A DNA stretch of 64,000 bases, taken from NCBI GenBank assembly GCA_947184155.2, contig CAMXCT020001757.1, forward strand, positions 244,970-308,969, written 5' to 3'. This DNA comes from Cladocopium goreaui. Its lineage: Eukaryota > Sar > Dinophyceae > Suessiales > Symbiodiniaceae. Positions 9,634-57,666 of this stretch are shown one piece after another (position 1 is the stretch's first letter; every line of letters begins with the position of its first letter). The notes beneath the pieces are model-generated. The model saw nothing but the letters and a program-made list of their open reading frames with translations. It did not search any database and was not told where the DNA came from. A program made the translations under genes and the position numbers.

Positions 9634-9704
9634 AAGGAGATCTTGCACCTCCTTCAGCAGGACACTTGAAACCTCCTTATCCCAGATCCTGGCAGCAAAA
9701 CTTT

Positions 9705-11366
9705 TCACTTCAGCTCTGGAATCACTTGTGCTCGAAAACTTTGCAGAACACGCATGCCTATGGAATAAGGGTTGTGGCTTCCACCTTTCACAGCTCCTAA
9801 GTGAGCTAGGAAGCCACCAAAGTCTTCGTCTCGATATGTCCAACTGTCTGACGGGCAAGAGTTCTGGAGCAATAAATCTAAGAAGCTGTGGTGCTTTGGT
9901 TTGATCTTCCAAGTATGGTCAGTCTCGTTTTCCAAGCTCTTGCACTACAGCAAAAACTGTCTGCCATGCAGCAGCATTGACTGGTGATTCCATAGATTCT
10001 TGGACAAGAAAGAATAACATTGCCACAGTTCTGTGGCAGCCATCTTGATTGTATATTCAAGCACATTGTCATCAGCCAAAAATTCATCGCAGATTTGTTT
10101 TGCAAAAGTAATCAACCCTCGAGCTTCTGCAGCTTTGGCTCGAAGTTTTGGACTTGAACTGGCTTTCTTTCTGATCATGAGGACTGTCAAAGTAGGAAGC
10201 TTGTTTTCCAAGCTTTTCACCCTTTCTCTGACATTGTTGCCAGGCAAGTGATTTCCAGAGGCAATTAAATGGTGAAAAACATTGCCCATAAAATCTGCTG
10301 CCACGCCCAAGTCCACAATGTGAAGCCAGTCCACAAGAAATTGTTTGCTTGTCAGTCCTGGTGTTTGAAACAATTCATTGATGTCAATGCCAGAATTGGA
10401 AATGGATTGCAACAAAGTGAAATGGTCCAAAGGATCAAATGCCTTGCAGCTTTCAAAGTGTCGAATTTCAATTGGTTTGCGCAAGCACAAATGGCAGCAT
10501 CCTTGTTTGTCTCGCCATCCAGGAAATTGGAAAACTTCTTTTCTCATAGCCCAATCACCTCTCACTTCAAGTAAAAAAGCAGTGAAAGGCAATGCCTTGC
10601 CATTGAATGTGCTTCGTTTTTTGTCGCCTGGGTGCCAAAATCTGCCATCATGCCTTGCTGAAGGCCAAGTGCAATTGGCTAAGTGAATAAAAGACCAAGA
10701 CAAAATTCCTAACATCTTCGACAAAGTTACTCCCTTGATGCACCAGTGCTTTGGAGTACAGCACAAAGGGATTCGCAAAGTGCCATTAGGTGGAAGTAAG
10801 CCAGGAAAATTCAATGAGATGCATTCCAAAGTTTGACTTCTGTCATAATTGTAAGGTGTGCCATCGATCCAAAGGCCGAGTCCTATGGCTTCTCGAACTT
10901 GGAATTGCATTTGCATGTTCGCCAAATGTTTCTTGCTGAGTTCACACATGCCACCAGTCTGCAGCAAGTCTTTCTTCTCAGAGCGCTTCGAGAAGACAAA
11001 AAGAATCTCATGTGGCAAAAGAAAAGGTATCTTCTTCATCTCTTCTGCTTGTGTTCCAGGATTGTAGCAAGGGATCAATGCAATGTATTCATTGAACCAC
11101 AGGCAATTCTTCAACATTTTTCTTTTCATATCCCTTGCCAAATTCTTTTCCCAATTGGCTTGCTTCTCACCACTGCCAGATTTCTCTGCACCTTTGACCA
11201 AATCTTTCACACCAGTGGCTCCAGCTATTTGTGCATCTTTCATGAGCTCATTGGCTCTTCTAGCAGAGACAGTCTTGGCCAAAAGCAAATTGGAAACATT
11301 GTGTCGAAACCTCTTCTGGTCAGGTTCCCTAAGGGTAGACAAATCTACCTTTCTCTTGTGAAACAT
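9705..11366 (-). pseudogene. DDE-type transposase, copy A (nonsense mutation and internal deletion)
   Basis: The frame from 11366 runs 473 codons to a TAG at about 9945, then continues in the same frame to 9705 (ending RAQVIPELK). Copy B reads Cys codons across that site, so the stop is a mutation. Visible motifs are LWIDGTPYNYDR with D168 as candidate first catalytic Asp, VRGDWAMRKEVF with D271 as candidate second Asp, GCCHLC (C291, C294), and VDWLHIVDLG with a D346-x2-H349 motif. A candidate third acidic residue is E446 in AATELWQCY. The order D, D, C-x2-C, D-x2-H fits the C/D(2)H pattern reported for CMC, hAT and MULE-type transposases. Thirteen residues present in B after RVKSL are missing here. 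The role would be cutting and joining DNA at the element ends. The product is probably inactive. Confidence 0.7.
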
Positions 11367-11668
11367 GGCTTGTGCTGGAAAAACATGTCAACATAAAAGT
11401 TCATAAGATCCCAGAAGACAAGAAGTTACACATTGTATTTAGTTAATGCTAATTTTGGCCAATGCTTTGAAACAGGGAAACAGTAAAGGAGATCTTACAC
11501 CTCCTTGAGTCTTGTACACCAGCTTAGAAGCAGGCTCTTTTTCTAGCGACAGTTACCAGCTGCGCATCTTCCAAGCAGATCCCTGCGATATTTTAATCTG
11601 CATTTCCACATTCCAAAACTGACAACTGCACCAAATGCGCTTTCCAAAATCTAAGGGCCAAACAGCTC

Positions 11669-11827
11669 CTACAGCAATGCCTGGTGAGTTTTCACCTTGG
11701 CTTTTGCTTCTTGCAGCTTCTCTTGGCTGGAAGCAAGCCATGCTTTGGCAGCAGGCAATGATTTTGAAAGGCTTTCAGGAGAAGTGTCCTCAGGAGCAAG
11801 ATCTTCACTGGCTGCGACATAGGATCG
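11669..11827 (-). pseudogene. 3' remnant of the lysine-rich element gene
   Basis: Collinear with the last roughly 53 codons of the 311-codon frame in copy B (51110-52045). The sequence breaks at 11827, where about 1.34 kb present in B is missing. The open frame at 11553-11741 is a different, antisense-frame reading and is not the gene. Confidence 0.65.
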
Positions 11828-12373
11828 TCACCTCTCTTGAACAAGCACTGCCTGAGGTAAAGTGCCAAATACTTTGTAGTTGCGCATTCCTGGGTTGGGC
11901 CACAGGTTCAGGGATCTATGTAATTCTTTTCTCGTCAAGCCAGCTTTATCAACAGAAACTATGAATTTCATCCATGAATAATGTGCTTACAAGTCTCAGA
12001 TGTTCTCAGGTACTCATAGTGCTTCAAAGGCTTCTTTGTTGGCATACATTTGATCATTGCGATCTGCTTGTCCATTGGGTCCACAGGGTTCTTCTCAATG
12101 GTGGCCAGTGGCTGCTTCCTCCATGGAGGCAGTTCCTTTGGAGGTTCCATTGAACCTTTCATTGAAAACTGATGAAGTAAGTTGGGATGTCTATGAATCT
12201 CCAGTTCCAAATCCAATGGTTTCTATTTTGGATCCAAAGTGATTTTTATTGGAGGTTAAAATTGGTTAAAATTAAAATTGCCAATTTTAATTTTAACCTA
12301 TCCTGCCTTTAAAAGTAATACATAAACTGGTTAAAATTAAAATTGACAATTTTAATTTTAACCAATTTTAACC
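11828..12373. other. Non-coding part of copy A
   Basis: Collinear with 52611-53150 of copy B. It includes an AT-rich inverted block, GGTTAAAATTAAAATTG followed by CAATTTTAATTTTAACC, that can form a hairpin. The nested element inserted at the edge of this block. Confidence 0.6.
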
Positions 12374-15300
12374 TACTAATGTCAACCAGCCCTTTCGGGG
12401 GAGGGGCCCCTTGGTACCGCGTCAAAGGGACCTTGGAAATAAAGCGTTCCAGATTTTTCTAGCAAAAAACAATGATTTTCAGCGGAGAGGTCAAAATACA
12501 ACAGATTCTAGGGCATTACTTTCGCACTGTGCGCGAACTGTTTCTTAGAAGGTGGTTCGTTGCTGAAAAAACCAGGGGCCAGACCCATTCACGGGAATAT
12601 CTTGATTTACTATGATATATAATGTTTCTTCCCGACACCGATCAGATGTTAGATAAACAGACGTCAACTAATCAGGTGCATCAAAACCAACCAAAGAATT
12701 TATTTCATAGATAAGACCTTCTGCCTGCTGCATATAGTATTATCTGATGAGCAGAAACATGTTGGATGAAATGACGATGAATTGACAAAAAGGCCATCCT
12801 TCAACCGTTTTCCTGTTTGGTTTTGGTGTTGTTTTGTTCCCCTACTTTTTCCTGCTTTTACACTTCCGTTTTTGGTGGGTGGATGGTGGCCAGCACATTC
12901 TGCAGATTTGTAGAGTTTGCCAATTCAAATAGGCAAAGGGTTACAGCATGCGAATCCGATTCACGTTTGATTGTTTTCATTTTTTGTTTCGATTGTAGTT
13001 GTTTGCGTGTGTGAGTGCAGTACCCTCTCCACTTTTCACAGCTGCGCCTGTGTGTGATGATGAAAACAAAAGACGAGGTAATGATGTGATGTATGTTTCC
13101 GCAATGTTTGAATACTTTACAATAATTTGAGTTTTGTCAAGTGTGAATCTCGGTGAAGGTGTAAGAAGTGTTGTGCGTGTGCGCCATGCAGAACAGGTTC
13201 TTGTTTGCGTTTTTTCCGCACCTCCGTGTGTTAAATACATCTTAAATATCATTTATGTACCTTGTGATTGTGGACGTTTGAAAAAATAGTTCCTGTTTTC
13301 CATTGGCCTCTTTTTTTGTTCATGCGGTCCCTCTTCTCCAGAGTTCTTCACATCAACCGCCTATCACCAATCACTGGGTGCCGTCTCTTTCCACATCAGT
13401 CGATGAGTTTTACATAGATACATTTAGATATTCAGATTTGACACGGGAGTGCCGTGTGTAGTCAAACTGCATGAGCATGAGCCTCACACAATTTCAACAC
13501 CGTTTAGTTTCTAGCAGGAACAGTCAGTTTGTTTCATGATTGAATGTTTTGGGTCTGCGAAGATCCTCCTCCATACATCTATGGTACTATAGATCAGAGA
13601 TTTTTTTTTCAAACTTGAATGCGACGTGATCAAAAAATCATGGTGCGCAAAAAAAATGCAAAAACATCTCTGCCTGGAACCCTGAGGCTGCAGTCAAGAA
13701 TTCCAGCAGTCCTGTTTGCTTCATCGATCAATCGCCCAAAGTGGTCAGCAGAGTTTGTCACTTTATTTCTCAATCGTTGACGAACTGGTAAGCGCCCAAG
13801 TTTGACAGTTCACCAATGGTTCCTCAAAATATGCGGCTGACCACAGAAGTTCGTCAATGAAACAGGCAGTTCGTCAATATTGACGATCTGGTTCATAAAC
13901 GCAACCAAGTTCGTCAATGGTTCGTCAATAGCTGCTGACGACCGCAAAACTGCGTCAATGACCCAGAAAGTTCGTCAATGGCCAAAAAGTTCGTCAATAT
14001 TGACGAACACGTCTTGCACATTGACGAACTATTGACGAACCAGTTCGTCAATATTGACGAACTTTCTGGGTTGTTGACGAACTGTTGTCGTCACCACTTA
14101 TTGACGAACCATTGAAGAACCATTGGCGAACCATTGACGAACCATTGACGAAGTTGGCCGCGTTGACGAACCAGATCGTCAATATTGACGAACTGCCTGT
14201 TTCATTGACGAAACTTCTGTGGTCACCTGCATGTTTTGAGGAACCATGGGCGAACTTGGGCGCTTTGATGATCAGTTCGTCAATGAGGCCTCAGTGACAA
14301 ACCCTGCTCTCTCACGACGACCTTGCATGATCTATAGCCTCATGAAATGAATTGTCCTTCAATTGCCATGGTTGATCATTTGTAGATTTTTTTCTTTACC
14401 TTAGACACAGCTGACATTTGCAAGTTGGTATGTTTAAGCATTTTCTATTGCTGTACACAATAGACTGACAGAGAAAGTAGATATGTAGTTATACTTCAGG
14501 AGTAAAACCTTAAAATACGAGAGGACACCACCGGAAACAAAATTGTGTGCACACGGGAGATGGTCCAATGAAAGTGTGATGATGTGGTAAACGCTGCTAG
14601 GAAACAAATTCCAGGGGGCCTAGACGATCAATATGATCAATGTAATTTGGCACATGATGATGGTGAGGCATGCCCCAATGCGATATAATTTGAAAATATA
14701 CCAAAGTGTTGGCGTGTCATATTTTTTGTGTTTACTCTCGGGGCCCATTGGCTAGCTTGGGAATTTCCGTCAAAATGTCTAACTTTGCCAAACAAATGCA
14801 TGGTTGCTTTCTTTGATACTTGTAATGTTTGCAGTACTGCAAAGCCACCCCTTCCAAGATTCCCACACAACCCCCTAGCTGCCAAAAACAAACAACTTTA
14901 GATGGACTTATATATTTCATCTGGTATCTGCAAAATTTCAAGGCAGTGTGAAATTATCGGCCTGGAACGCACGATCCCAAAAAGCGAGCGAGGCGAGCAG
15001 CATTGTTTTACACTATGGGGTATCACTTCTTTACTTGAAAACACGTATTTTCACGCTGAGCAAAATTTCATCCGAGCTAGAAACTAGTGGCACATTGATG
15101 CAAGTCTGAGCAGATGCCAACATAGATTTCCTTTTCAAATTTGGATAAATTTGTGGTGGTTTGGTGGTTCTTTTGCTCTATGGTATGTTTTCTTGTTTTA
15201 CATCTGTTGGTAGGAACAACATTGAACAACGACGTAGGCTGGCTGAGGCTTGTCGACCTGCTTCAGAAATTATAGCTGGAGTCGCCCAGGATGCAAATCT

Positions 15301-15617
15301 GTCTGCAAATGCAAAGATCATAGCGGATCTGGTTTGGCCGGTTCAAATTCCACATTCCATGCTTGTGCTGTGCAAGCATCCCAGTCCCCGGGAAAAAAAT
15401 TAGCAACCAGGAAATTAGTTTTGCGTTTTGGTCTAGATTTGGGTGGGAGAAATAGATCGCGCCAGAAATGTTGAAAATCTTCCTGCGCGGCGACAGTGCT
15501 TAAAAAACGTCATGTTTTTTCGCATACTGCCTGGAACATGCTATTTTATTGCTTCTTGTTCGCGGCACAGCCACCCGTAAGGGACCCTTGCCCCGAAAGG
15601 GCTCGTTGACATTAGTA
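12374..15617. mobile_element. Nested non-autonomous element, 3.2 kb, 8-bp target duplication
   Basis: The terminal inverted repeats are about 27 bp, beginning TACTAATGTCAAC at 12374 and ending GTTGACATTAGTA at 15617, each joined to AGCCCTTTCGGGG. The target duplication TTTTAACC lies at 12366-12373 and 15618-15625. Copy B has one TTTTAACC at the matching place (near 53153-53160) and no insertion, so it serves as the empty site. An 8-bp duplication is typical of hAT and P superfamilies, but no transposase is visible, so the class is inferred. Plus- and minus-strand frames inside (12817-13014, 12977-13252, 14637-14891) are short and unrecognised. Confidence 0.85.
13775..14283. repeat. 510-bp imperfect palindrome built of TTCGTCAAT repeats
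   Basis: The arms pair about a centre near 14031. For example GACCACAGAAG at 13839 pairs with CTTCTGTGGTC ending 14224, and GCGCCCAAGTT on the left pairs with AACTTGGGCGC on the right. Within each arm the word TTCGTCAAT and its complement ATTGACGAA recur, and GTTCGTCAATATTGACGAAC, itself a 20-bp palindrome, occurs at 13989-14008 and 14043-14062. Confidence 0.85.
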
Positions 15618-15628
15618 TTTTAACCTCC

Positions 15629-16062
15629 TTATTTTTCCAATTTGAAACCTTTACAGTCATCATGCATGACCTGAATGAATTGTATCCAGAGTTGCCAAGA
15701 GCCACTCAAACAAAGGAAATGGATGGGCATCAGCTTCGGCCAAGGAGATCTTGCACCTCCTTTTTGATTCCAGTATTGGACACTAGTGCAATGATTGTGA
15801 TACCTCAGGTTCAGATCATCAGCTCCCATCATCATTCCAAAGCTGGTCATGTGCATCCATCAAGGCTTCAAAAATGATTCTACAGGTCCATCACCACTAC
15901 ATTGATCAATATGACTTGACAGCTTCAGCCATGCAGAAATGCTCATATCACAGATATCATGTTTTACTTCAATTTGAATGTAGTTTATCAAGGAGATCTT
16001 GCACCTCCTTAAAGAGTCGCTTGCGCCCATACTCTCCAATCATTTCTCCAGGGAAGCTCAAT
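15629..16062 (-). pseudogene. Exon remnants of the copy A multi-exon gene
   Basis: The minus-strand frame 15856-15629 matches 53396-53154 of copy B, including FGMMM.ADDLNLRYHNHC. A second short segment just before the 21-mer at 15990-16010 reads GRKRLFKEVQDLLDKL on the minus strand and matches B near 53524. No function is recognised. Confidence 0.4.
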
Positions 16063-16239
16063 CTAGCCTGATCCAAGTTAATCCTTAATGATTACCCGGT
16101 TTACGGATTAGCGGTTTACGGATTAGCCCGCGGACCGGGGCACAGGTTCCACATTAAGTATTTAAAATTAAAGGTTTTGGGGCCTTCTTTCTTCCAAACA
16201 GCATTTACCTTTCGGCCTCAGCAAATCCAAACCCCCGGG

Positions 16240-17110
16240 AAGCAGAAATCAGGCCGAAAGTGCTTAAAAGGGGTTTGCTCTGGCAGGAATCAGGCCGAAA
16301 GTGCTTAAAAGGGGTTTGGCGGTGGACTTGCCAGAGCAAACCCCTTTTAAGCAGAAATCAGGCCGAAAGTGCTTAAAAGGGGTTTGGCGGTGGACTTGCC
16401 AGAGCAAACCCCTTTTAAGCAGAAATCATGCCGAAAGTGCTTAAAAGGGGTTTGGCGGTGGACTTGCCAGAGCAAACCCCTTTTAAGCAGAAATCAGGCC
16501 GAAAGTGCTTAAAAGAGCTTTGGCGGTGAACTTGCCAGAGCAAACCCCTTTTAAGCAGAAATCAGGCCGAAAGTGCTTAAAAGGGCTTTTGGCGGTGGAC
16601 TTGCCAGAGCAAACCCCTTTTAAGCAGAAATCAGGCCGAAAGTGCTTAAAAGGGCTTTGGCGGTGGACTTGCCAGAGCAAAGCCCTTTTTAGCAGACATC
16701 CGCCCGAAAGTGCTTAAAAGGGCTTTGGCGGTGGACTTGCCAGAGCAAAGCACTTTTTAGCAGAAATCAGGCCGAAAGTGCTTAAAAGGGCTTTGGCGGT
16801 GGACTTGCCAGAGCAAAGCCCTTTTAAGCAGAAATCAGGCCGAAAGTGCTTAAAAGGGGTTTTGGCGGTGGACTTGCCAGAGCAAACCCTTTTAAGCAGA
16901 AATCAGGCCGAAAGTGCTTAAAAGTGGTTTGGCGGTGGACTTGCCAGAGCAAACCCCTTTTAAGCAGAAATCAGGCCGAAAGTGCTTAAAAGAGGTTTGG
17001 CGGTGGACTTGCCAGAGCAAACCCCTTTTAAGCAGAAATCAGGCCGAAAGTGCTTAAAAGGGGTATGGCGGTGGACTTGCCAGAGCAAACCCCTTTTAAG
17101 CAGAAATCAA
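16240..17110 (+). repeat. 68-bp tandem array, left foldback arm (about 13 units)
   Basis: The unit begins AAGCAGAAATCAGGCCGAAA. It also contains an internal inverted repeat, AAAAGGGGTTTG and CAAACCCCTTTT, around GCGGTGGACTTGCCAGAG, so each unit can form its own hairpin. Confidence 0.95.
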
Positions 17111-18368
17111 GCCTTGGTTGCTTGCAGCCGGGCCGCGGCGCCAGGAAAACGCAAAAACGCGCGTAGATCGACGATCTACGCGCGATTTTGCGTTATACCA
17201 GGGTTTTGGCCACGCTGGGCTCCGTCGTGGCCGGGATCCTACGTATCGCTGTTCCGGCTACGCTGGTTTTTGGCCTTGGTTGCTTGCCGCGGGGCCGCGG
17301 CGCCACGAAAACGCAAAAACGCGCGTAGATCGACGATCTACGCGCGATTTGGCGTTATACCAGGGTTTGGTCGCGCTGGGCTCTGTCGTGGCCGGGATCC
17401 TACGTATCGCTGTTCCGGCTACGCTGGTTTTTGGCCTTGGTTGCTTGCCGCGGGGCCGCGGCGCCAGGAAAACGCAAAAACGCGCGTAGATCGATCTACG
17501 CGCGATTTTGCGTTATACCGGTGTTTTGGCCGCGCTGGGCTCTGTCGTGGCCGGAATCCTGCATATAGTTGTTCCGGCTACGCTGGTTTTTGGCCTTGGT
17601 TGCTTGCCGCGGGGCCGCAGCGCCAGGAAAACGCAAAAACGCACGTAGATCGACGATCTACGCGCGATTTTGCGTTATACCGGCGTTTTGGCCGCGCTGG
17701 GCTCGCCGTGGCCGGGATCCTGCATAGTTGTTCCGGCTACGGTGGTTTTTGGCCTTGGTTGCTTGCCGCGGGGCCGCCGGGCAGACGCAAGATGACACCC
17801 GTCACGCCGGGGAAAACGCAAAAACGCGCGTAGATCGACGATCTACGCGCGTTTTTGCTTTTTGAGCCCGGTTTCGCTGGGCACAGCAGTCCCAGCGCCC
17901 ACTGGAGAGGCCGTAAAGGCTCGGGACCGCCGGGTCTCGGCGATTTATCCAGCGGACTGAAGTTCAGCCCCCGGGCGCCGCACCCGCACCAAGGCTCGAT
18001 TCTCCCCCGGCGCGCCCTTCACAGGCTTGGGCTTGGCGTTTTGCTTGAAGGAAGCGAGTCATCGCACGGTCAGTGTAGCAAGTCACTCATGTGGTCGGAT
18101 TTTGCGTAATGCCCGGGTTATTGCCATGCTGGGCTTTGTCGTGGCCGGAATCCTGCATAGTTGTTCCGGCTACGCTGGTTTTTGGCCTTGGTTGCTTGCA
18201 GCGGGGCCGCGGCGCCAGGAAAACCCAAAAGACTTTGCGTTATACCAGGGTTTTGGCCCCGCTGGGCTCTGTCGTGGCCGGAATCCTGCGTAGCTGTTCC
18301 GGCTACGCTAGTTTTTGGCCTTGGTTGCTGGCATCGGGGCCGCGGCGCCAGGAAAACGCAAAAACACG
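17111..18368 (+). repeat. Central about 160-bp repeats of the foldback element
   Basis: Units start CCTTGGTTGCTTGC near 17112, 17273, 17435, 17596 and 17754, with partial copies after 18110. Most contain CGCGCGTAGATCG and its reverse complement separated by one base. GC content is much higher than in the surroundings. A GC-rich non-repeat spacer lies at about 17850-18100. Frames such as 16982-17833 are artefacts. Confidence 0.85.
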
Positions 18369-19460
18369 CGTTTGCTCTGGCAAGTCCACCGCCAAACCCC
18401 TTTTAGGCACTTTCGGCCTGCTTTCTGCTTCCCGGGGGTTTGCTTTGGAAAGTCCACCGCCAAACCCCTTTTAAGCACTTTCGGCTTGATTTCTGCTTAA
18501 AAGGGGTTTGCTCTGGCAAGTCCACCGCCAAACCCCTTTAAGCACTTTCGGCCTGATTTCTGCTTAAAAGGGGTTTGCTCTGGCAAGTCCACCGCCAAAC
18601 CCCTTTTAAGCACTTTCGGCCTGATTTCTGCTTAAAAGGGGTTTGCTCTGGCAAGTCCACCGCCAAACCTCTTTTAAGCACTTTCGGCCTGATTTCTGCT
18701 TAAAAGGGGTTTGCTCTGGCAAGTCCACCGCCAAACCCCTTTTAAGCACTTTCGGCCTGATTTCTGCTTAAAAGGGGTTTGCTCTGGCAAGTCCACCGCC
18801 AAAACCCCCTTTAAGCACTTTCGGCCTGATTTCTGCTTAAAAGGGGTTTGCTCTGGCAAGTCCACCGCCAAAACCCCTTTTAAGCACTTTCGGCCTGCAC
18901 TTTCGGCCTGATTTCTGCTTAAAAGGGGTTTGCTCTGGCAAGTCCACCGCCAAACCTCTTTTAAGCACTTTCGGCCTGATTTCTGCTTAAAAGGGGTTTG
19001 CTCTGGCAAGTCCACCGCCAAAGCCCTTTTAAGCACTTTCGGCCTGATTTCTGCTTAAAAGGGGTTTGGTCTGGCAAGTCCACCGCCAAAGCCCTTTTAA
19101 GCACTTTCGGCCTGATTTCTGCTAAAAAGGGCTTTGCTCTGGCAAGTCCACCGCCAAAGCCCTTTTAAGCACTTTCGGCCTGATTTCTGCTAAAAAGGGC
19201 TTTGCTCTGGCAGTCCACCGCCAAAGCCCTTTTAAGCACTTTCGGCCTGATTTCTGCTAAAAAGGGCTTTGCTCTGGCAAGTCCACCGCCAAAGCCCTTT
19301 TAAGCACTTTCGGCCTGATTTCTGCTTAAAAGGGCTTTGCTCTGGCAAGTCCACCGCCAAACCCCTTTGAAGCACTTTCGGCCTGATTTCTGCTTAAAAG
19401 GGCTTTGCTCTGGCAAGTCCACTGCCAAACCCGGCCGAAGCACTTTCGCCAGGATTTCTG
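18369..19460 (-). repeat. 68-bp tandem array, right foldback arm (about 16 units)
   Basis: The same 68-bp unit as at 16240-17110, in the opposite orientation (TTTGCTCTGGCAAGTCCACC ... TTTCGGCCTGATTTCTGCTT). CCCC versus GCCC variants are grouped along both arms, which suggests local unit-by-unit expansion. Confidence 0.95.
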
Positions 19461-19676
19461 GTTCCCAGATTGGAAATGTCACCGTCCTATCTATGCTTTA
19501 AACCGGATTACGGATTAGGTCTCGGATTACGGATTCGACTCTTTGGGGCTTCTGAGACGGATTCCGGGATTACGGATTAAGGTAAGGCCCGTGAGCATTT
19601 GGTACAGCTTAGTCAATTGACTCAATCTACATTTGAATCCTCATCCTCTTTGGGTTTTTCGGCTTGCTCTCCAGCA

Positions 19677-21690: not shown

Positions 21691-21844
21691 TCATCTTGAG
21701 AAATCAACTGCAGATGCGATGCACAAACATTACATGCAGGAAAACAAAACACCAAAAGGATATCTTGCATCTGCTTGAAGCAACCTCCAAAGGTTGGTCT
21801 TGATGCAATGATGATGTCAAAGATGTATCAAACAACAGTGAAAA

Positions 21845-22020: not shown

Positions 22021-22022
22021 TT

Positions 22023-26578: not shown

Positions 26579-26609
26579 TGAAGGCGGGGGCAAGGGCAGT
26601 GCCAACGAG

Positions 26610-46490: not shown

Positions 46491-49400
46491 GCATGACTGA
46501 TCTAGCCTTTCAAATTTGACAATCTTTCAAGGTGGGTCTCTCATGATCTTTCCTCACTTGCACTTCAATTGCCAACATTGTATCTAAAGGGACACATGAC
46601 GTTTTCACACATGATTGTCTGTCATCCCTACAATGGGCGCCAACACCTCCTAAGTTTAAATGTTAACTTGGCAGGGCTTTCAACCGAAAGCTGGCGATGG
46701 AGTCCAATGGAACCCTTCCAAGTTCGGAGGAGATCAGATTTGCGACCATTTGTGGAAGCCATGCCAACATGGCAGCTCGTGCAATCATGCATGGTAGCAT
46801 GGTTCACGACATACCGAATGAATGGAGACGAGCAATCCAAGATGGTGCAGAATGGAAGGTCATCAAAGCAGTGGTATGGCAGCAGTTCCCAGAGTTGGTG
46901 GACATGGTTTGCCAGAGTGGAAACACCAACCAGAGCATCTCCAAGCAGGAGGACGAGATGCAGCTGCTGAACAAGATAAGACAGGCATGCAAGGCTTATG
47001 GTGGCAGTGGAGCGCCGAAGTGGCAGGACGTGGCAGGCGCGGCTCTGCGCTCACGACCAAAGTGTGGACCTTCAGGTCCCGCAATCTTTGGCTTTGTGGT
47101 GAGATTTGGTGGCTCCAGCAAGTTGTTGGCGGACACACAAGCCTACGTGAGAGCGTGTGGCAAGGGGGGCCGAGAACTTGGGCAGGAAACTTGGGCCACA
47201 CTATCCCAAGAGATGAAGAACTTCCCCGACCACCTCCGTTGGAGACACGCATTGCTGAAGTATGGATTTGCTGGTGACACCACCTTGACAGTCACAGACG
47301 CCGCTCGGAAGCAATTTATATCAGTACGTACACACACATGTATTATATATATATATCAATTGTCATTGCTGTCAACCTCCCTGCAGGTTGGGCGTGTTGC
47401 TCGCTTGCTCTTTTTGGTTGAAGACTTGATCGCATATAATAACGTACGCTTCACAACGTCGGCTGAGATATGTTTCAATGAATTTCGCATGGGCAATTCC
47501 AAAGACATATGTGACAGCTACAAACAGTTCAAGATGCACAGCCCTGACATCCGAGGCCAAACGAGCGATGACAAACAGGGAGGTTCTGCAAAAGGCACTC
47601 TCCGCCATGAAACTGCTGGACCAGTGGACCACATTGACCAAAGCCTACGCCAACGATGACAACAAGCAGTTGAAGTTCCTGCGTGCACATGGCAGCTTAG
47701 AGGTGCACTTGGCAGCATGTGTGCTGGACAAGAAAAACAGAACGCACGACAAGATGGAAGATGCAGCCCGGCAGACACTGCAGGATTTTTCAAAAGAAGT
47801 TGGCGTGGCACTGGCGCCGCCAAGCCAATGGAGCCAGACTCAGACTGAGAAGAAGCCTCCTCCCAAGAAGCCATCCAACAACACTGTCGTGAGAGAATAC
47901 AACGACAAAGGTCAGCTGACAAACGCAACCGAAGTCTTGGCTTCGATGGGCTTCGCTGTTGGCTCTCAAGTGCAGCGCGGCCAGACCGTGGCGAAGATCG
48001 ATCGTGTCCAAGGTGACGAGGTGCACTTGATTGTGGAGAGCAACAAAGTCTTCGTGTCCACTGCCTCCTTCATTGGCAATGAGTGGAAGCAGTACAGCGA
48101 GCCTAAGCCACAGCTGGAGGTGACGTGGCTGCAGCATTCCCCACCTTCCAGCGTGGAGTTCCAACATTGTCTGTTGAAGGCCAAGGTCTTCGGTGCTATG
48201 GCAGAGCAGTGCAAGAAGTTGCAAGGCTGGGATGCTCTGCAGATCTTTACGAACCCAAAGGCTATCAAAGTCACAAAGCATTGGCCTGCCAAGAAGCTTC
48301 AATTGCCGTGCGCCAGTACTAGTGTCATGCTGATTGAGGCAAACAAAATCACCTCGGACCAGTTGCCCATTGGAACATTTGAGAACTTCATGGTCGTCAT
48401 CTGCAGCTATTCCAAGACTGGCAACGGCGCAGGCGATGGCTTCCAGAACCCCTTCTGGCTCGTACCCAGGACAAATGAAGCTGATGATGTGAACATGGAG
48501 GCAGGCTTTCGGGTTGTGTGGTGTCTTGGGATCGGCAGAGTTGACATTTCGAATCTTTAGCGTGCTAGCAGCTGGTTGGCTGATCGCTGCTCGTGATTTT
48601 ATACACATCCGAAAGTTGATTTTTCCATTGTACTCGCATAAAAATATGCTTAAGTACATGTCTTGGCTGCGTCCTTCCAATGTGCAATCCCATTCTTCGT
48701 GAATCAAATCAATGCTCATTAGTGTAAAAATAAACATTATGTGTCTTAATGTACATGTATATTTATCTAATATATATACACTGATATTAGAGATGTGTGC
48801 ATACACACAGAGGAAGCAAATTTGTGCGTACAAATTCAGCATAGATAAGCTTAGAGATATTCACAGATGCACCAATTGACTTGAATTACAAGCGCATGTA
48901 TACCCAGAACTTCCATTCCTCCTTATTTAAGGAATTCCTCCTTATTTAAGGAATTCCTCCTTAAAATTCCTCCTTAAATTAAGGTGGAATTTTTCAAAAA
49001 TTCCTCCTTAAAATTCCTCCTTAAATTTTCAATTGCAAGGAGATCTTGCACCTCCTTCAGCAGGAGACTTGAAACCTCCTTATCCCAGATCCTGGCAGCA
49101 AAACTTTTCACTTCAGCTCTGGAATCAATTGTGCTCGAAAACTTTGCAGAACACTCATGCCTATGGAATAAGGGTTGTGGCTTCCGCCTTTCACAGCTCC
49201 TAAGTGAGCTAGGAAGCCACCAAAGTCTTCGTCTCGATATGTCCAACTGTCTGATGGACAAGAGTTCTGGAGCAATAAATCTAAGAAGCTGTGGTGCTTT
49301 GGTTTGATCTTCCAAGTATGGTCAGTCTCGTTTTCCAAGCTCTTACACAACAGCAAAAACTTTCTGCCATGCAGCAGCATTGACCGGTGATTCCATAGAT

Positions 49401-52400
49401 TCTTGGACAAGAAAGAATAACATTGCCACAGTTCTGTGGCAGCCATCTTGATTGTATATTCAAGCACATTGTCATCATCCAAAAAATCATCGCAGATTTG
49501 TTTTGCAAAAGTAATCAACCCTCGAGCTTCTGCAGCTTTGGCTCGAAGTTTTGGACTTGAACTGGCTTTCTTTCTGATCATGAGGACTGTCAAAGTAGGA
49601 AGCTTGTTTTCCACACCTTCAGTCTTGTAGTAGCTTTGAATTTTGTGGAACAAGCTTTTCACCCTTTCTTTGACATTGTTGCCAGGCAAGTGTTTTCCAG
49701 AGGCAATTAAATGGTGAAAAACATTGCCCATAAAATCTGCTGCCACGCCCAAGTCCACAATGTGAAGCCAGTCCAAAAGAAATTGTTTGTTTGTCAGTCC
49801 TGGTGTTTGAAACAATTCATTGATGTCAATGCCAGAATTGGAAATTGATTGCAACAAAGTGAAATGGTCCAAAGGATCAAATGCCTTGCAGCTTTCAAAG
49901 TTTCGAATTTCAATTGGTTTGCACAAGCACAAATGGCAGCATCCTTGTTTGTCTCGCCATCCAGGAAATTGGAAAACTTCTTTTCTCATGGCCCAATCAC
50001 CTCTCACTTCAAGTAAAAAAGCAGTGAAAGGCAATGCCTTGCCATTGAATGTGCTTCGTTTTTTGTCGCCTGGGTGCCAAAAGCTGTCATCATGCCTTGC
50101 TGAAGGCCAAGTGCAATTGGCTAAGTGAATAAAAGACCAAGACAAAATTCCTAACATCTTTGACAAAGTTACTCCCTTGATGCACCAGTGCTTTGGAATA
50201 CAGCACAAAGGGATTCGCAAAGTACCATTAGGTGAAGTAAGCCAGGAAAATTCAATGAGATGCATTCCAAAGTTTGACTTCTGTCATAATTGTAAGGTGT
50301 GCCATCGATCCAAAGGCCAAGTCCTATGGCTTCTCGAACTTGGAACTGCATTTGCATGTTCGCCAAATGTTTCTTGCTGAGTTCACACATGCCACCAGTC
50401 TGCAGCAAGTCTTTCTTCTCAGAGCGCTTCGAGAAGACAAAAAGAATCTCATGTGGCAAAAGAAAAGGTATCTTCTTCATCTCTTCTGCTTGTGTTCCAG
50501 GATTGTAGCAAGGGATCAATGCAATGTATTCATTGAACCACAGGCAATTCTTCAACATTTTTCTTTTCATATCCCTTGCCAAATTCTTTTCCCAATTGGC
50601 TTGCTTCTCACCACTGCCAGATTTCTCTGCACCTTTGACCAAATCTTTCACACCAGTGGCTCCAGCTATTTGTGCATCTTTCATGAGCTCAATGGCTCTT
50701 CTAGCAGAGACAGTCTTGGTCAAAAACAAATTGGAAACATTGTGTCGAAACCTCTTCTGGTCAGGTTCCCTAAGGGTAGACAAATCTACCTTTCTCTTGT
50801 GAAACATGGCTTGAGCTGGAAAAACATGTCAACATAAAAGTTCATAAGACCTCAGAAGACAAGAAATTACACATTGTATTTAGTTAATGCTAAATTTGGC
50901 CAATGCTTTGAAACAGGGCAACAGTAAAGGAGATCTTACACCTCCTTGAGTCTTGTACATCAGCTTAGAAGCAGGCTCTTTTTCCAGCGGCAGTTACCAT
51001 CTGCGCATCTTCCAAGCAGATCCCTGCGATATTTTTATCTGCATTTCCACATTCCAAAACTGACAACTGCACCAAATGCGCTTTCCAAAATCTAAGGGCC
51101 AAACAGCTCCTACAGCAATGCCTGGTGAGTTTTCACCTTGGCTTTTGCTTCTTGCAGCTTCTCTTGGCTGGAAGCAAGCCATGCTTTGGCAGCAGGCAAT
51201 GATTTCGAAAGGCTTTCAGGAGAAGTGTCCTCAGGAGCAAGATCTTCACTGGCTGCGACATAGGATCGAAGGTTGGCAATGGCTTTCAGCTGCTCTTGAC
51301 ACCAAGTCTGAAGACCTTTGCCTTTGGCATGGAAGCTTGGGTCACCTTTGATTTCCAAACGACAGGCCAGGTCCTGGGCCTTGGCAAGCTCCTTCTCCCA
51401 GGCATTCTTGCAGGAATTCAGTCTGTTGCACACATTCTGAAACTCCTTCAAAGGCTTACTGACCCCCTTGTCATCCAAAGCCTTGCCTGAGATCTGCAGC
51501 ACTTCAGAGCCACTGGAAGACATTGTCAAGTTATCCTTGGCTGCTTGGCTTTGGCTCACAGCAGACCATGTGCTCTTCAGCAAGGCCAAATTCCATCGCT
51601 GGAGCTTGGAAGCCTTGTAGCTCGCTTCCACAGGGTTCGTCTCATCCCAATTCAAGTCTACCATGTCTTTTTGCTTGGCCAAGTGCTTTTCAACAGCAAG
51701 AAACTCGTCAGAATCAGCTGTCATTTCGAGCATGGCGGCCACTTGGAATCTGGTTCCAAAACCAGCTCTTTCATTGACAGTTTCTTTCTTTTCAGTCTCC
51801 AAAGACTTGTTCCAAGTGCTGATCCACTTGCAAGTCTTGTCAGCCTTCCAAGCTTGGATCAAATCCTTCTTCTGCTGTGAGAAACGAGGCAAGGACTGGT
51901 AGAGCTGCAAGACTTGTTGGGCTTCCTCTGAGTTCGACTTCTTCAAGGAATTTCCAAAGTTGGCTTGGTCTTTCTGATCCACATTGGCCTTCTCCTTCTT
52001 GACTACAGCCTTGGGAGCAGGCTTAGGCTCAGCATTCCTGCCCATGTTTGCAGAAGCTGGAGCTTGGGAGCTGTCTACTGTGATCCTTGTAGTGGCTGCA
52101 ATGAAGAAATGTCTCAGCTGATCAGTTCCTGCAAGTCTTTAGCTTCTGAAAACGAATCAGCCAAGACAGTAGCATGCCCAGGACCAAGGAAGCCAGAAAA
52201 AGCAAGAGAGAAGGGAAGATGATGATATTGAAAAAAAAATATATATATATATATGTCTATATACATATATGTATATGTATATGTATGTGTGTATATATAT
52301 ATTTATATATATTCAAGTACTTGGCTCAAAAAGACAAGCTCCAAAATTGAGAATGCACCAAGCAGCACAAGCTTGCAATTGATTGCCACACCATAGGATC

Positions 52401-55400
52401 TCATCTATAAGGAGGTTGAAATACCTCCTTGGAAATAAAGGAGGACTCTGTTCTCCTTAAATATCATATGTCTTCACAACCCCCCCTGCCCAGCCACAAG
52501 TCCACAGGCATTTTCCCACACTAATTATCTTGCGGTAATTAATTGGCTTCTATTTACTTTGGCTCTGGTCTTTGCCACTTGTTTCTTTTCTAGGTACCAG
52601 AGGCTCAGTCTTCACACCTCTCTTGAACAAGCACTGCCTGAGGTAAAGTGCCAAATACTTTGTAGTTGCGCATTCCTGGGTTGGGCCACAGGTTCAAGGA
52701 TCTATATATGTAATTCTTTTCTCATCAAGCCAGCTTTATGAACAGAAACTATGAATTTCATCCATGAATAATGTGCTTACAAGTCTCAGATGTTCTCAGG
52801 TACTCATAGTGCTTCAAAAGCTTCTTTGTTGGCATACATTTGATCATTGCGATCTGCTTGTCCATTGGGTCCACAGGGTTCTTCTCAATGGTGGCCAGTG
52901 GCTGCTTCCTCCATGGAGGCAGTTCCTTTGGAGGTTCCATTGAACCTTTCATTGAATACTGAAAAGTGTAATGATGAAGTAAGTTGGGATGTCTATGAAT
53001 CTCCAGTTCCAAATCCAATGGTTTCTATTTTGGATCCAAAGTAATTTTTATTGGAGGTTAAAATTGGTTAAAATTAAAATTGCCAATTTTAATTTTAACC
53101 TGTCCTGCCTTTAAAAGTAATACATAAACGGGTTAAAATTAAAATTGGCAATTTTAACCTCCTTGTTTTTCCAATTTGAAACCTTTAGAGTCATCATGCA
53201 TGACCTGAATGAATTGTCTACAGAGTTGCCAAGAGCCACTCAAACAAAGGAAATGGATGGGCATCAGCTTCGGCCAAGGAGATCTTGCACCTCCTTTTTG
53301 ATTCCAGTACTGGACACTAGCGCAATGATTGTGATACCTCAGGTTGAGATCATCAGCTCTCATCATCATTCCAAAGCTGATCATGTGCATCCATGAAGGC
53401 TTGAAAAATGATTCTACAGGTCCATCACCACTACATTGATCAATATGGCTTGACAGCTTCAGCCATGCAGAAATGCTCATATCACATATATCATGTTTTT
53501 CTTATATTTAAATTTAGTTTATCAAGGAGATCTTGCACCTCCTTAATGAGTCGCTTGCGCCCATAATCTCGAATCATTTTTCCAGGGAAGCTCAATTGAC
53601 TCAATCTACATTTGAATCCTCATCGGCTTGCTCTCCAGCATCAAGAGGTGATGTAGGAGAACATGGGGTTACAGCAGGACCTGATCAGGAGGCATGATGA
53701 TGAACATATTGCACAGTGCATGATTGACATGAGATAATTTCAAACCCACAGTCACAGAAAACTCCAGCCTGTGTAGATCATTCCTTCATCCAGGAGCTCC
53801 AATGGGGTAGCATGCGCAGTAGGTGCAGTAGGTGGTCCTCATGATGCATTGAAACTGAAACAAAGGAGGTGCAAGATCTCCTTATGCCCAAAACAAAAAA
53901 TCATCTGAGGAGGTCTTGCACCTCCTTCATAACATGATATATCAAACCATATATGAAACAAAATCATTATCTAAATGATTCAAGTTTCCATAGATTTGAG
54001 AAGCTCTCACAGCATAGAGGATTCTCATTCGTCTTCTTGCTTCTTCAATTGAGATGACCCCCATGTCAGCCATGTAAGTGAGTTGGGCTGCTGCACCTCT
54101 CACTCCCTCCCCCAGTGGTAGACCTGCATCCAGTGTTGGAAAAAAAATATAAATATTCAAAACACAATCTATGTCCAATATGATACATCATAAAACATGT
54201 TTGCCACCTTGCAAGAGGGCTACCACAGCTGCCATCTGAGAGGAGGAAGGTCCTCCTTCGCCAGCACCAGGCAACACTTCAGGAGGATGGATAAATTCAG
54301 GAGATGCCAAGTCAACAGGAGAACCTGCCAGCACAACTATGCCATGCAGAAGTGAGCAATTGTGATATTAGAAATGGATGCCTCACATACTATGTGTACA
54401 TATACATGAAAAACACACATATATATATTACTGTAATATATATATATATATATCTATATCTATCTAACTATCTATATCTATCTATCGATCTATATCTACA
54501 TGACATGTCAAATATGCAGGGCCTTCACCAGGTGGAGCAGCAGCAACTTGCTCATCAGGGCGGCGGCGCTTAGGAGCAGGTTCTTTTCCTGCCAAAGTCA
54601 AATGGCTAGATTGTCTGAAGGAGATCTTGCACCTCCTTACTCAATGTACGGCATCAAAATTACACAACATAGCTTTGAAAGCATGCAATTTTCATCCATC
54701 AGTCCTGGCTGATTGTATGGTGTAAATCGTCTGGGAAAACGTTGCCTGTCTGCCCACCAATGGTTCAGTTCTCTCTTCTGGCCTCTGTTAGGCTTCCAGC
54801 GCTCCTGGTGCTTTTTTCCAACCTTCCATTTAAGGTTGTCATCATATTTCCCCCCCCAGGACTTGGCAGCATCTGCCAATGGTGCGTCTGCCCTGTACAC
54901 TGATACCTAGGCAGCAGGATGGAGTCCATTCTTTTTTGGCAATATACTATATCTTCAAAACACAGTAGTGCAGATATTTTGAGAAAGGAGATCTTGCACC
55001 TCCTTTGTAAAGATGAGAAACCTAAAACATAAATTGCAATGCATCAAAGTGCGATTTATTGAACGCCTGGTTGCAGTGCAGGCTGGGTTCATGCAGCACC
55101 CATTTCGCCAATACGCTTCTTCCCCACAAATTCTGCATGTTCTCAAGTAGCTTGTAGAAGGCGAGGTGGCAGGCGCTGGGGTACTTGGTAAGGGCACATT
55201 TGGAGGGGGCATTGCAGAAGCACCACCTGGAGGGGCACCTGAAGTAGCTGGAGGAGGTGTATTTGGAGGTGGTAAAGGTTGTGATTGGACATTGACATGA
55301 GGTGTCAATGCCTGGATCACCTGGGTCTGTACCCTGATCAGCTCCAAAACACGGTCAATCTCCTCATCTCCGGGCCTCCTGCGAGAGGAACTTGATTGTC

Positions 55401-57666
55401 CAGCTCCCATAGCAACAGCAAGAACAAAATTCGAGCACTGAAACAGGAGCTAGAAAGCCAAAGCAGCTTCAGTTGTAAAATCCATTCTCAACACTGCAAT
55501 TTCCATGCCAAACCATTTCAACATTCCAAATTCCAGACAAAACTTCTCAAATCCAAAATTCCAATCCAACATTAAACATTAAAGCCGCATCCTATGAAAG
55601 TCTATAAGCCATGTTTGAAATCCACCCAGGCACTAAACGCTCAAGTTCCAAATGTCAGGAGATCTTGCACCTCCTTAAGACAGAAAAGTGGAAAGACTAT
55701 TTCCTATTTTCCTATAGAGAACTCTCAGGAGATTTTACACCTCCTTGAAACATGCAACAGAAATCAGCAGCAATTTTCTTGCATGTTCATCCAATCTAAT
55801 CCACATCCTGTCCAACCTTCCACTTTCGAATTTCCTCATTCAAAAATTCAATCACAGATTGTTCAGTAGCACCATTGTGCAAATCAGCAATGCATTTCTT
55901 GGCCAAATCCAAGCCAACTTCTCTTGAAATTTTGTTCAAAGTGAAAGGTTTGATTTGTTTCTTGTCTCCAAAATTTCGTCTGATACCTAAAGCACCATAC
56001 TTTCGACTGCCTTTGGCAGGATAATCTTCCAAGCGATATTCAGGAGATGCCAAGTCAACAGAAGCAGGTTCAGGATCAGCAACTGCCACAGCCGGCCGAG
56101 CTTCAACATCCTCTTCTTCAGAAGTGCCAAGTGCTGCTTCACATGCAGAAGGCTTTTTCAAGATTGCAGCAGGCCTTTTCAAGACTGCAGCAGGCCTTTT
56201 CAAGACTGCAGCAGGCCTTTTCAAGACTGCAGCAGGCCTTTTCAAGACTGCAGCAGGCCTTTTCCCACCTGCAGATTGCCTATAGATCTTCAAAGATTCA
56301 TTGGGAATTTCAGATTCAAATTTGTTTTCACCAAAAGCAGCAATGGCAAAGCCATTTGGTCCTTCACTCATAGTAGCTTTCTCCACCTTGCTATCCACAA
56401 AGCGACATACCACCATGGCAGTAGAATCGATCCAGGTTCCAGCACTCACAGGCTTCTTAGGACTCGCTTGGCTCTCTTCACTCGACACTTCTATCAATTG
56501 ATGCTCTTGGCTATCCAATGTTTCTGAGCTGTGGCCTGGAGGAAATTTTTGCAAAAGTGGTTCATTCACAGGCAACTGTGGGATGGAGCTCGCATTGGAA
56601 CTTTGTCTCATGAGCCTTCGCTTGGCAATGGCTTTCTGAACAAACTTGCCTTTCTGCCGGTTCCCATGGAATTCTGAGCACTCCAGATAGATCTTCACAA
56701 GCTCACCCATCCAAGACTCATATTTCTTACTTGAAATTGACCATTTTGCTTTTGTTCTGATGTGTTGCACACATTCGACAATTGCAGAAGACCACTTCTT
56801 CGCTTCGTCACTCAAACAGCGAGGGTAGACTTTCAAGGCAGCTTCCTTCAAGCACTCTTTGGATGGTCGAATTGTTTTCTGGAACATCACGCCCAGAAAT
56901 TCGATAATGCTTGCAAACTTGATCAATTTCAACATCCAAGTACTTCTCGGGATCCAAACAAGCCACCTCTGCTTTCAAACATTTGCAAAGGTCTTGAACA
57001 GAAGCAGTGTTCTTAGCTCTAGTCATCTTGAGAAATCAACTGCAGATGCGATGCACAAACATTACATGCAGGAAATCAAAACACCAAAAGGAGATCTTGC
57101 ATCTCCTTGAAGCAACCTCCAAAGGTCGGTCTTGATGCAATGATGCTGTGAAAGATGTATCTAAAAACAGTGAAAAAAAATCTTCCTAAAAAAAAATAAG
57201 GAGGGAATTTCAAAAAAAAACGCCTTAATTAAGGAGAATTCCTCCTTAATTAAGGTGGAATTCCTGAATTAAGGAAAAATTCCTCCTTAATTAAGGGAAT
57301 TCCTCCTTAATTAAGGTGGAATTCCTTTAAAAAAAAACTCCTTAAATTAAATAAGGAGGAATGGAAGTTCTGGGTACATGCATACAAACACAAATACACA
57401 TGTTTGTTCATGTAAATCTGACTGAGTACGCTGTCTCCGTCCTTGAACGAACTTGAATCATGAGCTGCTCTGCGCAGGTCTACCCGTCCATCGATGTCTT
57501 GAAGACGAAGGTCATCAAGCTTGACAAGGAGATTGGTTTGCCAGTCCTTCGCAACTCTGACAAGTTGGAGGCAGGAGATGAGCTATTGCTGTACATGGAG
57601 AAAAAGGACAAGGCGCAGGGTGAGCCGTTGAGGGCTGGACCTTCCAAGAGGCTGCGAAAGACTTGA
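46105..57666 (+). CDS. Multi-exon dinoflagellate gene of unknown function, with copy B in its last intron
   Basis: Exon 1 starts at 46105 (MNQAQKDQIQKYIQAAANEG); its donor is not fixed, probably 46400-46490. Exon 2 is 46675-47323, from acceptor TTGGCAG to donor TCA/GTACGT, and includes EIRFATICGSHANMAARAIM and QEDEMQLLNKIRQACKAYGG. A 63-bp intron follows. Exon 3 begins at 47387 (VGRVARLLFLVEDLIAYNN) and ends near 47446. Exon 4 runs from about 47520 to 48500, ending NPFWLVPRTNEADDVNME. Exon 5 is 57478-57666 (VYPSIDVLKTKVIKLDKE ... SKRLRKT). The exon 4/5 junction is in phase: GAG/GC donor at 48500 and GCAG/GTC acceptor at 57477. The intron is 8,977 bp and encloses transposon copy B. From memory, the exon 2 and exon 5 phrases resemble a large family of uncharacterised Symbiodinium proteins. 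A basic C-terminus suggests nuclear localisation, which is only an inference. Confidence 0.7.
48903..49036. repeat. Copy B left terminal and subterminal repeats
   Basis: CCCAGAACTTCCATTCC is followed by TTATTTAAGGAATTCCTCC words repeated about four times in alternating orientation. This end is slightly longer than in copy A because of one extra AAGGAATTCC unit. Confidence 0.85.
49108..50807 (-). pseudogene. DDE-type transposase, copy B (one frameshift)
   Basis: The N-terminal part (50807-50169 frame, MFHKRKVDLSTLREPDQKRF) and the C-terminal part (50265-49108 frame) are the same protein as in copy A, joined across a one-base loss near 50232 (GGTGAAG here, GGTGGAAG in A). Downstream it is uninterrupted through the site of A's stop, to RAQLIPELK. 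It keeps the segment HKIQSYYKTEG that A lacks. Candidate catalytic motifs (WIDGTPYNYD, RGDWAMRKEVF, CCHLC, DWLH) are all present. A splice acceptor TTTTTCCAG just upstream of the start (about 50816) and a GAG/GTGTAAG donor in the 21-mer at 50927-50947 suggest an upstream exon. Confidence 0.7.
51110..52045 (-). CDS. Lysine-rich protein of copy B
   Basis: An uninterrupted frame of 311 codons. It opens MGRNAEPKPAPKAVVKKEKA and is rich in Lys, Gln, Ser and Ala throughout, with likely helical or coiled-coil stretches (LQLYQSLPRFSQQKKDLIQA; EKELAKAQDLACRLE) and spaced tryptophans. The C-terminus is AKVKTHQALL. No family recognised. Its place next to the transposase, and frame integrity, make it a likely second transposition protein or a 5' part of the transposase transcript. 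In copy A all but the last roughly 53 codons is deleted. Confidence 0.55.
   Translation of the reverse strand: MGRNAEPKPAPKAVVKKEKANVDQKDQANFGNSLKKSNSEEAQQVLQLYQSLPRFSQQKKDLIQAWKADKTCKWISTWNKSLETEKKETVNERAGFGTRFQVAAMLEMTADSDEFLAVEKHLAKQKDMVDLNWDETNPVEASYKASKLQRWNLALLKSTWSAVSQSQAAKDNLTMSSSGSEVLQISGKALDDKGVSKPLKEFQNVCNRLNSCKNAWEKELAKAQDLACRLEIKGDPSFHAKGKGLQTWCQEQLKAIANLRSYVAASEDLAPEDTSPESLSKSLPAAKAWLASSQEKLQEAKAKVKTHQALL
52046..53150. other. Non-coding part of copy B with a (TA)n microsatellite
   Basis: TATATATATA and TATATGTATATG runs at 52228-52312. Two loop variants of the hairpin repeat lie at 52409-52458. The AT-rich inverted block GGTTAAAATTAAAATTG lies at 53055-53150. No supported gene. 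A frame at 52559-52741 is short and unrecognised. Confidence 0.5.
53154..53560 (-). CDS. Exons of the copy B multi-exon gene, distal part
   Basis: The minus frame 53480-53154 reads ISAWLKLSSHIDQCSGDGPV and MMMRADDLNLRYHNHC, and passes through a hairpin repeat. A segment ending at the repeat 53524-53544 reads MIRDYGRKRLIKE. Both are conserved in copy A at matching positions. No domain recognised. If the hairpins act as donors, the first exon would end at QKG or QKGG near 53290. Confidence 0.35.
53942..54900 (-). CDS. Multi-exon gene of copy B, proximal part
   Basis: Four coding blocks on the minus strand. Block 1 (54900 to about 54640) reads MYRADAPLADAAKSWGGKYD and NHWWADRQRFPRRFTPYNQP. Block 2 (54588 to about 54521) starts after TTTGGCAG and reads KEPAPKRRRPDEQVAAAPPG. 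Block 3 (54324 to about 54207) starts after CTGGCAG, reads SPVDLASPEFIHPPEVLPGA, and ends GCAAG/GTGGCA. Block 4 (54123-53942) starts after GATGCAG and reads LPLGEGVRGAAAQLTYMADM and SIEEARRRMRILYAVRASQI. Blocks 3 and 4 join in phase as LLQG/LPLGEG. The region is absent from copy A. Function unknown. A nuclear signal-like PKRRRP is present. Confidence 0.5.
54955..55410 (-). CDS. Proline-rich zinc-finger protein of copy B
   Basis: 151 codons, starting MGAGQSSSSRRRPGDEEIDR, the same protein as 19677-20135. Differences are mostly in the Pro-rich middle, where small in-frame deletions remove a few residues, while the cysteine region (CRICGEEAYWRNGCCMNPAC) keeps every Cys. This pattern suggests the frame was under selection after the copies diverged or in their ancestor. 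It ends through the hairpin repeat (TKEVQDLL), as in copy A. Confidence 0.6.
   Translation of the reverse strand: MGAGQSSSSRRRPGDEEIDRVLELIRVQTQVIQALTPHVNVQSQPLPPPNTPPPATSGAPPGGASAMPPPNVPLPSTPAPATSPSTSYLRTCRICGEEAYWRNGCCMNPACTATRRSINRTLMHCNLCFRFLIFTKEVQDLLSQNICTTVF
55796..57026 (-). pseudogene. KRPAAVL-repeat protein, copy B (one frameshift)
   Basis: The start MTRAKNTASVQDLCKCLKAE at 57026 reads to about 56900, where a 2-bp loss relative to copy A shifts the frame. The remainder (MFQKTIRPSKECLKEAALK to KWKVGQDVD) is open to 55796. It contains five tandem KRPAAVL/KRPAAIL heptads encoded by a 21-bp repeat (56155-56265), an acidic stretch EEEDVEARP, and a conserved C-terminal block YRLEDYPAKGSRKYGALG. 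Restored length would be about 410 residues. Basic Lys-Arg-Pro-Ala-Ala repeats occur in many dinoflagellate proteins and may bind DNA; the role here is unknown. Confidence 0.6.
57178..57374. repeat. Copy B right terminal and subterminal repeats
   Basis: AATTAAGGAGGAATTCC-type words in both orientations, ending GGAATGGAAGTTCTGGG. Mirrors the left end and copy A 21845-22020. Confidence 0.85.
57478..57666 (+). CDS. Last exon of the multi-exon gene
   Basis: Begins in phase after CTGCGCAG. Reads VYPSIDVLKTKVIKLDKEIG, LPVLRNSDKLEAGDELLLYM and a basic tail ending RLRKT, then TGA. The upstream ATG at 57460 is inside the intron and is not needed. Confidence 0.65.
   Translation, partial: VYPSIDVLKTKVIKLDKEIGLPVLRNSDKLEAGDELLLYMEKKDKAQGEPLRAGPSKRLRKT

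Follow-up and report, generated by a model that had tools for sequence, protein, structure and literature searches.

In a 64-kb stretch of the Cladocopium goreaui genome (contig CAMXCT020001757.1, positions 244,970 to 308,969 of the forward strand; hereafter the window), a short inverted repeat, AAGGAG-N9-CTCCTT, recurs along two copies, A and B, of a young DNA transposon whose genes we term gene 1, gene 2, gene K and the transposase gene. The repeat is probably a stem-loop in the sense RNA of this multi-gene element, read by a trans-acting factor that processes or protects element transcripts. Hairpins of related form occupied matching places in two divergent transposon families, each with a hairpin sequence of its own, and the outer bases of the stem covaried. 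From these observations we infer transcription, a binding factor and a role for the hairpin.

The first-pass annotation of the window described about 22 hairpin copies seeded through the transposon and found nowhere else. With up to two mismatches allowed, the whole window contained 24 AAGGAG-N9-CTCCTT sites against 2.56 expected; 22 were inside A and B, in agreement with that count, and two were outside (5187 and 36276). All 20 AGGAG-N9-CTCCT sites lay in element sequence of A or B and none in the nested insertions or flanks, confirming the earlier observation for the window. A genome-wide count, suggested earlier as a check, gave 413 occurrences of the pattern with 6-bp arms in the 1.17-Gb genome, compared with 83 for a reversed-pattern control, and by our count 45 of 50 genome places among the matches listed had the element-type inner sequence. 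A partial match outside the elements, at 23411-23431, had 15 nt (AAGGAGATCTTGCAC) in common with the hairpin; it belongs to a degenerate array rich in AGAGATCTTGC (22900-23480) that adjoins copy A.

Fourteen sites were exact (five in A, nine in B). Besides these, the two arms were separated by ten bases at one site (52409) and by five at two sites within the subterminal repeats (21898 and 57231). The nine-base loop of the original description holds as a spacing in the exact sites, but the motif is better read as a 5-base loop closed by an 8-bp stem: on the coding (minus) strand the usual copy was AAGGAGGU-GCAAG-AUCUCCUU, with one G.U pair that becomes A.C on the opposite strand. Nine hairpin positions, not eight as first reported, were matched between A and B (Table 1). 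In B, which carries 14 hairpins, copies were found 5' of gene 1 and 50 and 120 nt past the gene 1 stop. Others were spread over the gene 2 region and ahead of gene K; one lay 163 nt past the gene K stop, in the spacer before the transposase gene, and the last two followed the transposase stop at 27 and 51 nt. At 53863-53927, two hairpins point in opposite directions with 23 nt between them and could fold into one long stem.

We refer to the family of A and B as family I. A genome search with P0007 gave 85 matches among those listed, and 78 of 749 candidates were scored. Four members 37-41% identical to P0007 were fetched: L049 and L051, the two copies of family II; L052, which with its extensions L053 and L054 makes up family III; and L050. 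All three families come from one genome. Compared with the transposase of the window or with P0001, a near relative of it, the family II transposase was about 36-37% identical and that of family III about 34-36%. All four genes were recognisable in family II. In family III, BLAST identified the transposase and, of gene 2, the CxxC block; gene K was assigned by position and resemblance only, and gene 1 was not identified. Family II contained 13 copies of CTCCTA-NNN-AGGAG, 12 of them also in L051, and family III nine copies of CTCCT-NNN-AGGAG, all nine inside the element. Hairpin pattern counts in B, II and III were 13, 13 and 9, against Markov means of 0.005-0.025 (0.015 for II, 0.025 for III). 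No window-type hairpin turned up as part of family II or III. In all three families, hairpins preceded the first gene (for III, its first long open reading frame), stood between gene K and the transposase gene, and followed the transposase gene; in I and II, the families with a recognisable gene 1, they also lay 3' of that gene. L050 (38% identical to P0007) is largely masked upstream, and its readable part had no AGGAG/CTCCT hairpins; a palindromic AGTTAACT array at 5657-5825 of this locus (G000:C3005), upstream of the transposase relative, perhaps represents subterminal repeats.

The covariation analysis used a single copy from each of families II and III, and hairpins within one element may share ancestry. 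The core was constant in both families; the flanking bases varied from copy to copy yet paired. At outer pairs 1-2, 22 of 26 were paired in family II, compared with 12.8 in shuffles (P = 5e-5). The values for family III were 14 of 16 versus 7.25 (P = 0.0036) without the copy in coding sequence, and 15 of 18 (P = 0.008) for all nine copies. A second program found 14 cells changed on both sides in family II versus 5.6 (reached in 0 of 500 shuffles), and the family II covariation score was 0.306 versus 0.091 (again 0 of 500), with far lower values for slid structures. Outer pair 4 gave no pairing signal in II or III. Outer pairs 1-2 of II and III, read on the coding strand, included nine G.U and no A.C (eight and none without the in-coding copy), as expected if the coding-strand RNA is under selection. 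Of the 14 B hairpins, nine had G.U at pair 7, one had A-U and two had G-C; the remaining two, both inverted, had A.C. Folding energy favoured the sense strand in 11 copies and the antisense strand in three. An RNA hairpin in element transcripts was one of several explanations offered in the first-pass annotation; covariation, strand-biased wobble and same-place hairpins in two divergent families speak for it.

Several results weigh against a sense-RNA stem-loop. The number of family II pairs with change on both sides was not above shuffles (3 versus 2.7), two of the nine G.U pairs came from a single copy flanked TG/TG (at 8000), and U.U occupied outer pair 1 in 2 of 13 family II copies. Two of the 14 B copies are inverted and a third cannot be oriented, and all three fold better antisense. 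Folding energy had no strand bias in family II (six lower, five higher of 13) and a weak one in family III (5 to 1 of 8 copies). In family III, one copy of nine (10847) falls within coding sequence, and its first outer pair is missing. None of the 14 B hairpins falls in the coding blocks as delimited, but gene 2 exon limits are not fixed. No hairpin-binding protein was identified: the predicted structure of gene 1 (predicted local distance difference test score 68) had no Foldseek match below E 0.001. When B was compared with A and 13 further stretches, hairpin columns were less variable than random nearby placements (16/295 versus a mean of 27.4; 106 of 5000 placements as low), which favours the proposal, but the constraint among family I copies was modest (P about 0.02). 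Finally, 2-base direct repeats surrounded seven of the 22 hairpins that families II and III have together, versus 1.4 expected (II, 4 of 13 with 0.8 expected; III, 3 of 9 with 0.6 expected), which also favours the introner-like spread considered below. Five of these seven repeats were self-complementary (AT or GC), and pairing alone would also give these.

The transposase codon positions of family I copies varied about alike (0.086, 0.069 and 0.083); the copies thus look largely unconstrained after insertion. No relatives were found in viral contigs or GTDB genomes, and the one motif copy in one viral contig is near our rough chance expectation. A comparison of B with Rfam 15 gave 26 matches at E up to 1, none of which reached the gathering score. 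A literature search of titles and abstract openings, with most subscription papers and all preprints outside its scope, yielded no account of such hairpins.

Most hairpins avoid coding sequence and are placed ahead of the first gene, in the spacers separating genes, in likely introns or past the last stop. If the hairpin is a sense-RNA signal as we propose, a trans-acting factor would recognise it. Each transposon family has its own hairpin type, so the element itself would most likely encode this factor. The factor may process or protect element transcripts through 3'-end formation, trans-splicing between genes, control or choice of splicing, or stability. Amphidinium genes have 3' untranslated regions (UTRs) of 42-143 nt according to the excerpted text of PMC2488372; on that scale, the copies 27-120 nt past stops could be in 3' UTRs.

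The strongest competitor, which we consider unlikely, is that the motifs resemble enlarged subterminal repeats and are internal sites at which transposase or an accessory protein binds double-stranded DNA. The motif is palindromic, family-specific and repeated in the element, and, as noted in the first-pass annotation, its AAGGAG recurs in the subterminal repeats of family I, whose termini contain AGGAG/CTCCT 7 plus 6 times. However, this is peculiar to family I: the termini of II had 0 plus 0 occurrences and those of III 0 plus 1, although both families kept hairpins. The link between hairpin and subterminal repeat is therefore not general; CCTTAA/TTAAGG was present in the termini of all three families. 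Duplex sites would not be expected to have variable yet pairing outer bases, or G.U without A.C at pairs 1-2. Moreover, four family I copies (L011-L014) lack the hairpins at 2366, 2733, 4913 and 4941 of B, share both junctions and have different flanks at four places; these four hairpins thus seem dispensable in cis for mobility.

Three derivative lineages (A; L007/L008; L011-L014) are each short of two internal segments relative to B. Five clean deletions measured 1341-1366 bp, and the first of A, where foreign DNA now lies, about 1375 bp. All three lineages would thus end at near-equal sizes of about 5.75 kb. Deletions in other copies differ in size (L006, 177 bp; L047, about 0.7 kb; L048, about 5.5 kb).

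It is improbable that the element has borrowed host mRNA-processing signals, such as those of dinoflagellate 3'-end formation or trans-splicing. Five B copies 27-163 nt past stop codons, set beside the Amphidinium 3' UTR lengths in the excerpt of PMC2488372, would suit such signals. Nevertheless, the motif was not in the rest of the window, and the listed genome places were of element type in 45 of 50 cases, host 3' UTRs lying outside that search; the hairpin type also varies by transposon family within one genome.

Functionless selfish spread of a tiny introner-like unit inserting at AAGGAG, also raised in the first-pass annotation, we regard as very improbable. Near-identical copies are many in introns and spacers, two family II copies lie in a probable gene 2 intron that B lacks, and the 2-base repeats described above fit insertion. 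Nonetheless, repeats of at least 3 bp surrounded just 1 of 22 copies in II and III; among 14 family I hairpins none had direct repeats of 2 to 4 bp and one had a repeat of 5 bp. Direct repeats of 3-6 bp were found at 1/14, 0/13 and 1/9 hairpins in I, II and III. Copies aligned across a hairpin gave no clean empty site (L011 partly lost one, at B 6424), and insertion spread alone does not explain the outer-pair covariation. Amoebophrya introners are likewise from a dinoflagellate and have short inverted repeats near introns; in the excerpted account (PMC7789003), however, the repeats pair both ends of one intron, with direct repeats of 3-5 nt that the present hairpins generally lack. Here a complete hairpin lies on one side, also at UTR positions, inside one transposon group.

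The least credible proposal, which we give almost no weight, makes the hairpins splice donors (GAG/GTGCAAG): GAG/GT is present in 11 of 14 B copies, the copy at B 2366 by our reading fits an in-frame exon end and some gene 2 copies could overlap donors. Against this, two copies close to the end of the element lie beyond the last stop codon, 27 and 51 nt from the transposase stop; the copy furthest 5' has GAG/AT in B and in 13 other sequences spanning it; and GT follows AGGAG in so few cousin hairpins (2 of 13 in II, 1 of 9 in III) that donor function is not general. Eight proteins that match the joined predicted gene 2 exons were set aside as splicing evidence because their sequences look like mechanical read-through of genomic DNA.

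Coordinates of the transposon copies, genes and hairpins are given in Table 1. Foreign DNA breaks copy A at two places (about 12355-15617 and 16062-19682), and A also lacks two of the internal segments of B. Both ends were located in ten family I copies (among A, B and the 10-kb stretches), and seven of these had a 2-bp target-site duplication (TSD); L006, L007 and L013 were mismatched. L045 (G000:C4955:463240-473200) is a long copy with open frames for gene 1, gene K and the transposase. We found 112 protein relatives, two of them in entries with the name Symbiodinium. The first part of gene 2 appears zinc-ribbon-like by our reading of its sequence. A probable intron early in family II gene 2, with two hairpins inside, lies at 3290-3425 of the L049 reverse complement; B 1961-2100 reads through, and the intron may have been gained or lost along with its hairpins.

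Table 1. Transposon copies, genes and hairpins in the window. TIR, terminal inverted repeat.
Feature	Position	Strand	Remarks
Transposon copy A	9519..22020	- (coding strand)	TIR CCCAGAACTTCCATTCC, TSD TT
Transposon copy B, 8472 bp	48903..57374	-	TIR CCCAGAACTTCCATTCC, TSD TA
Gene 1 of B, frameshifted; KRPAA repeats	55796..57026	-	open 403-aa frame in L045
Gene 2, first coding part (MGAGQSSSS...), CxxC motifs	55006..55410	-	later exons between 54900 and 53600 not delimited
Gene K, 311 aa (MGRNAEPKPAPK...)	51110..52045	-	
Transposase gene, frameshifted in B	49108..50807	-	single open frame in relatives (566-aa relative P0001); RAG1/Transib-like predicted fold
Hairpin 5' of gene 1 in B	57088..57108	-	A-U at pair 7
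Hairpin 3' of gene 1 in B	55726..55746	-	
Second hairpin 3' of gene 1 in B	55656..55676	-	
Hairpin, end of first gene 2 coding part	54985..55005	-	
Hairpin, gene 2 region	54618..54638	-	
Hairpin, inverted pair with 53863	53907..53927	-	G-C at pair 7
Inverted hairpin copy	53863..53883	+	
Hairpin between gene 2 and next exons	53524..53544	-	
Hairpin between gene 2 and gene K	53276..53296	-	
Inverted divergent copy 5' of gene K	52438..52458	+	
22-nt variant 5' of gene K	52409..52430	.	AAGGAGGT-ATTTCA-ACCTCCTT on - strand; orientation undecidable
Hairpin between gene K and transposase	50927..50947	-	
Hairpin variant, 27 nt past transposase stop	49061..49081	-	
Hairpin, 51 nt past transposase stop	49037..49057	-	
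A counterpart of 57088	21756..21776	-	degraded
A counterpart of 55726	20451..20471	-	
A counterpart of 55656	20381..20401	-	
A counterpart of 54985	19695..19715	-	
A counterpart of 53524	15990..16010	-	
A counterpart of 53276	15742..15762	-	
A counterpart of 50927	11486..11506	-	
A counterpart of 49061	9658..9678	-	
A counterpart of 49037	9634..9654	-	

The nearest solved folds to the predicted transposase structure (model m04ea8709799e) were RAG1 and Transib, and the predicted fold is RAG1-core-like. RAG1/Transib-like transposases make 5-bp target duplications, whereas the duplication here is 2 bp. A Pfam search of 30 transposase members at E up to 1 matched seven families, one member each, none of them a transposase. 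CACTA (En/Spm) transposons have TIRs that begin CACTA or CACTG, short target duplications of 2-3 bp, and subterminal motifs for TnpA. The present element resembles them as a multi-gene DNA transposon with a short TIR, a 2-bp duplication (in I, II and III), subterminal repeats and a DDE-type transposase. It differs in that TIRs start CCCAG in all three families (CCCAGCTCTTCCAAAAG with TSD TA in family II and CCCAGAGCTTCCAAAAG with TSD GA in family III, one copy each examined), in the absence of a Pfam transposase match and in its nearest folds; its hairpins are internal and, in two of the three families, unlike the subterminal repeats. The 3' stem-loop of histone mRNA and its binding protein offer a parallel, with one type of short conserved stem-loop past the stop serving several genes; here, however, hairpins are also found upstream and in likely introns, number 9-14 per element and are exchanged between families. 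Coat-protein or packaging hairpins of RNA phages likewise provide many short stem-loops along one transcript for one cognate protein, but the host here is a DNA transposon with no packaging known.

A broader and more tentative proposal is that dinoflagellate transposons with a RAG1-like transposase tag their transcripts, at gene boundaries and in likely introns, with a family-private stem-loop read by an element protein; hairpin and reader might coevolve, with recognition in each family limited to its own RNA. If true, this would constitute a private RNA-processing code within a DNA transposon. Descriptions of DNA transposons usually centre on the ends and the transposase. Here, the internal feature that recurs most often appears to be an RNA structure whose place is kept while its sequence changes by family. 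Processing of dinoflagellate mRNA is unusual and poorly understood; the hairpins would, if the proposal holds, give a handle on the expression of multi-gene elements in dinoflagellates and supply a set of orthogonal hairpin-protein pairs.

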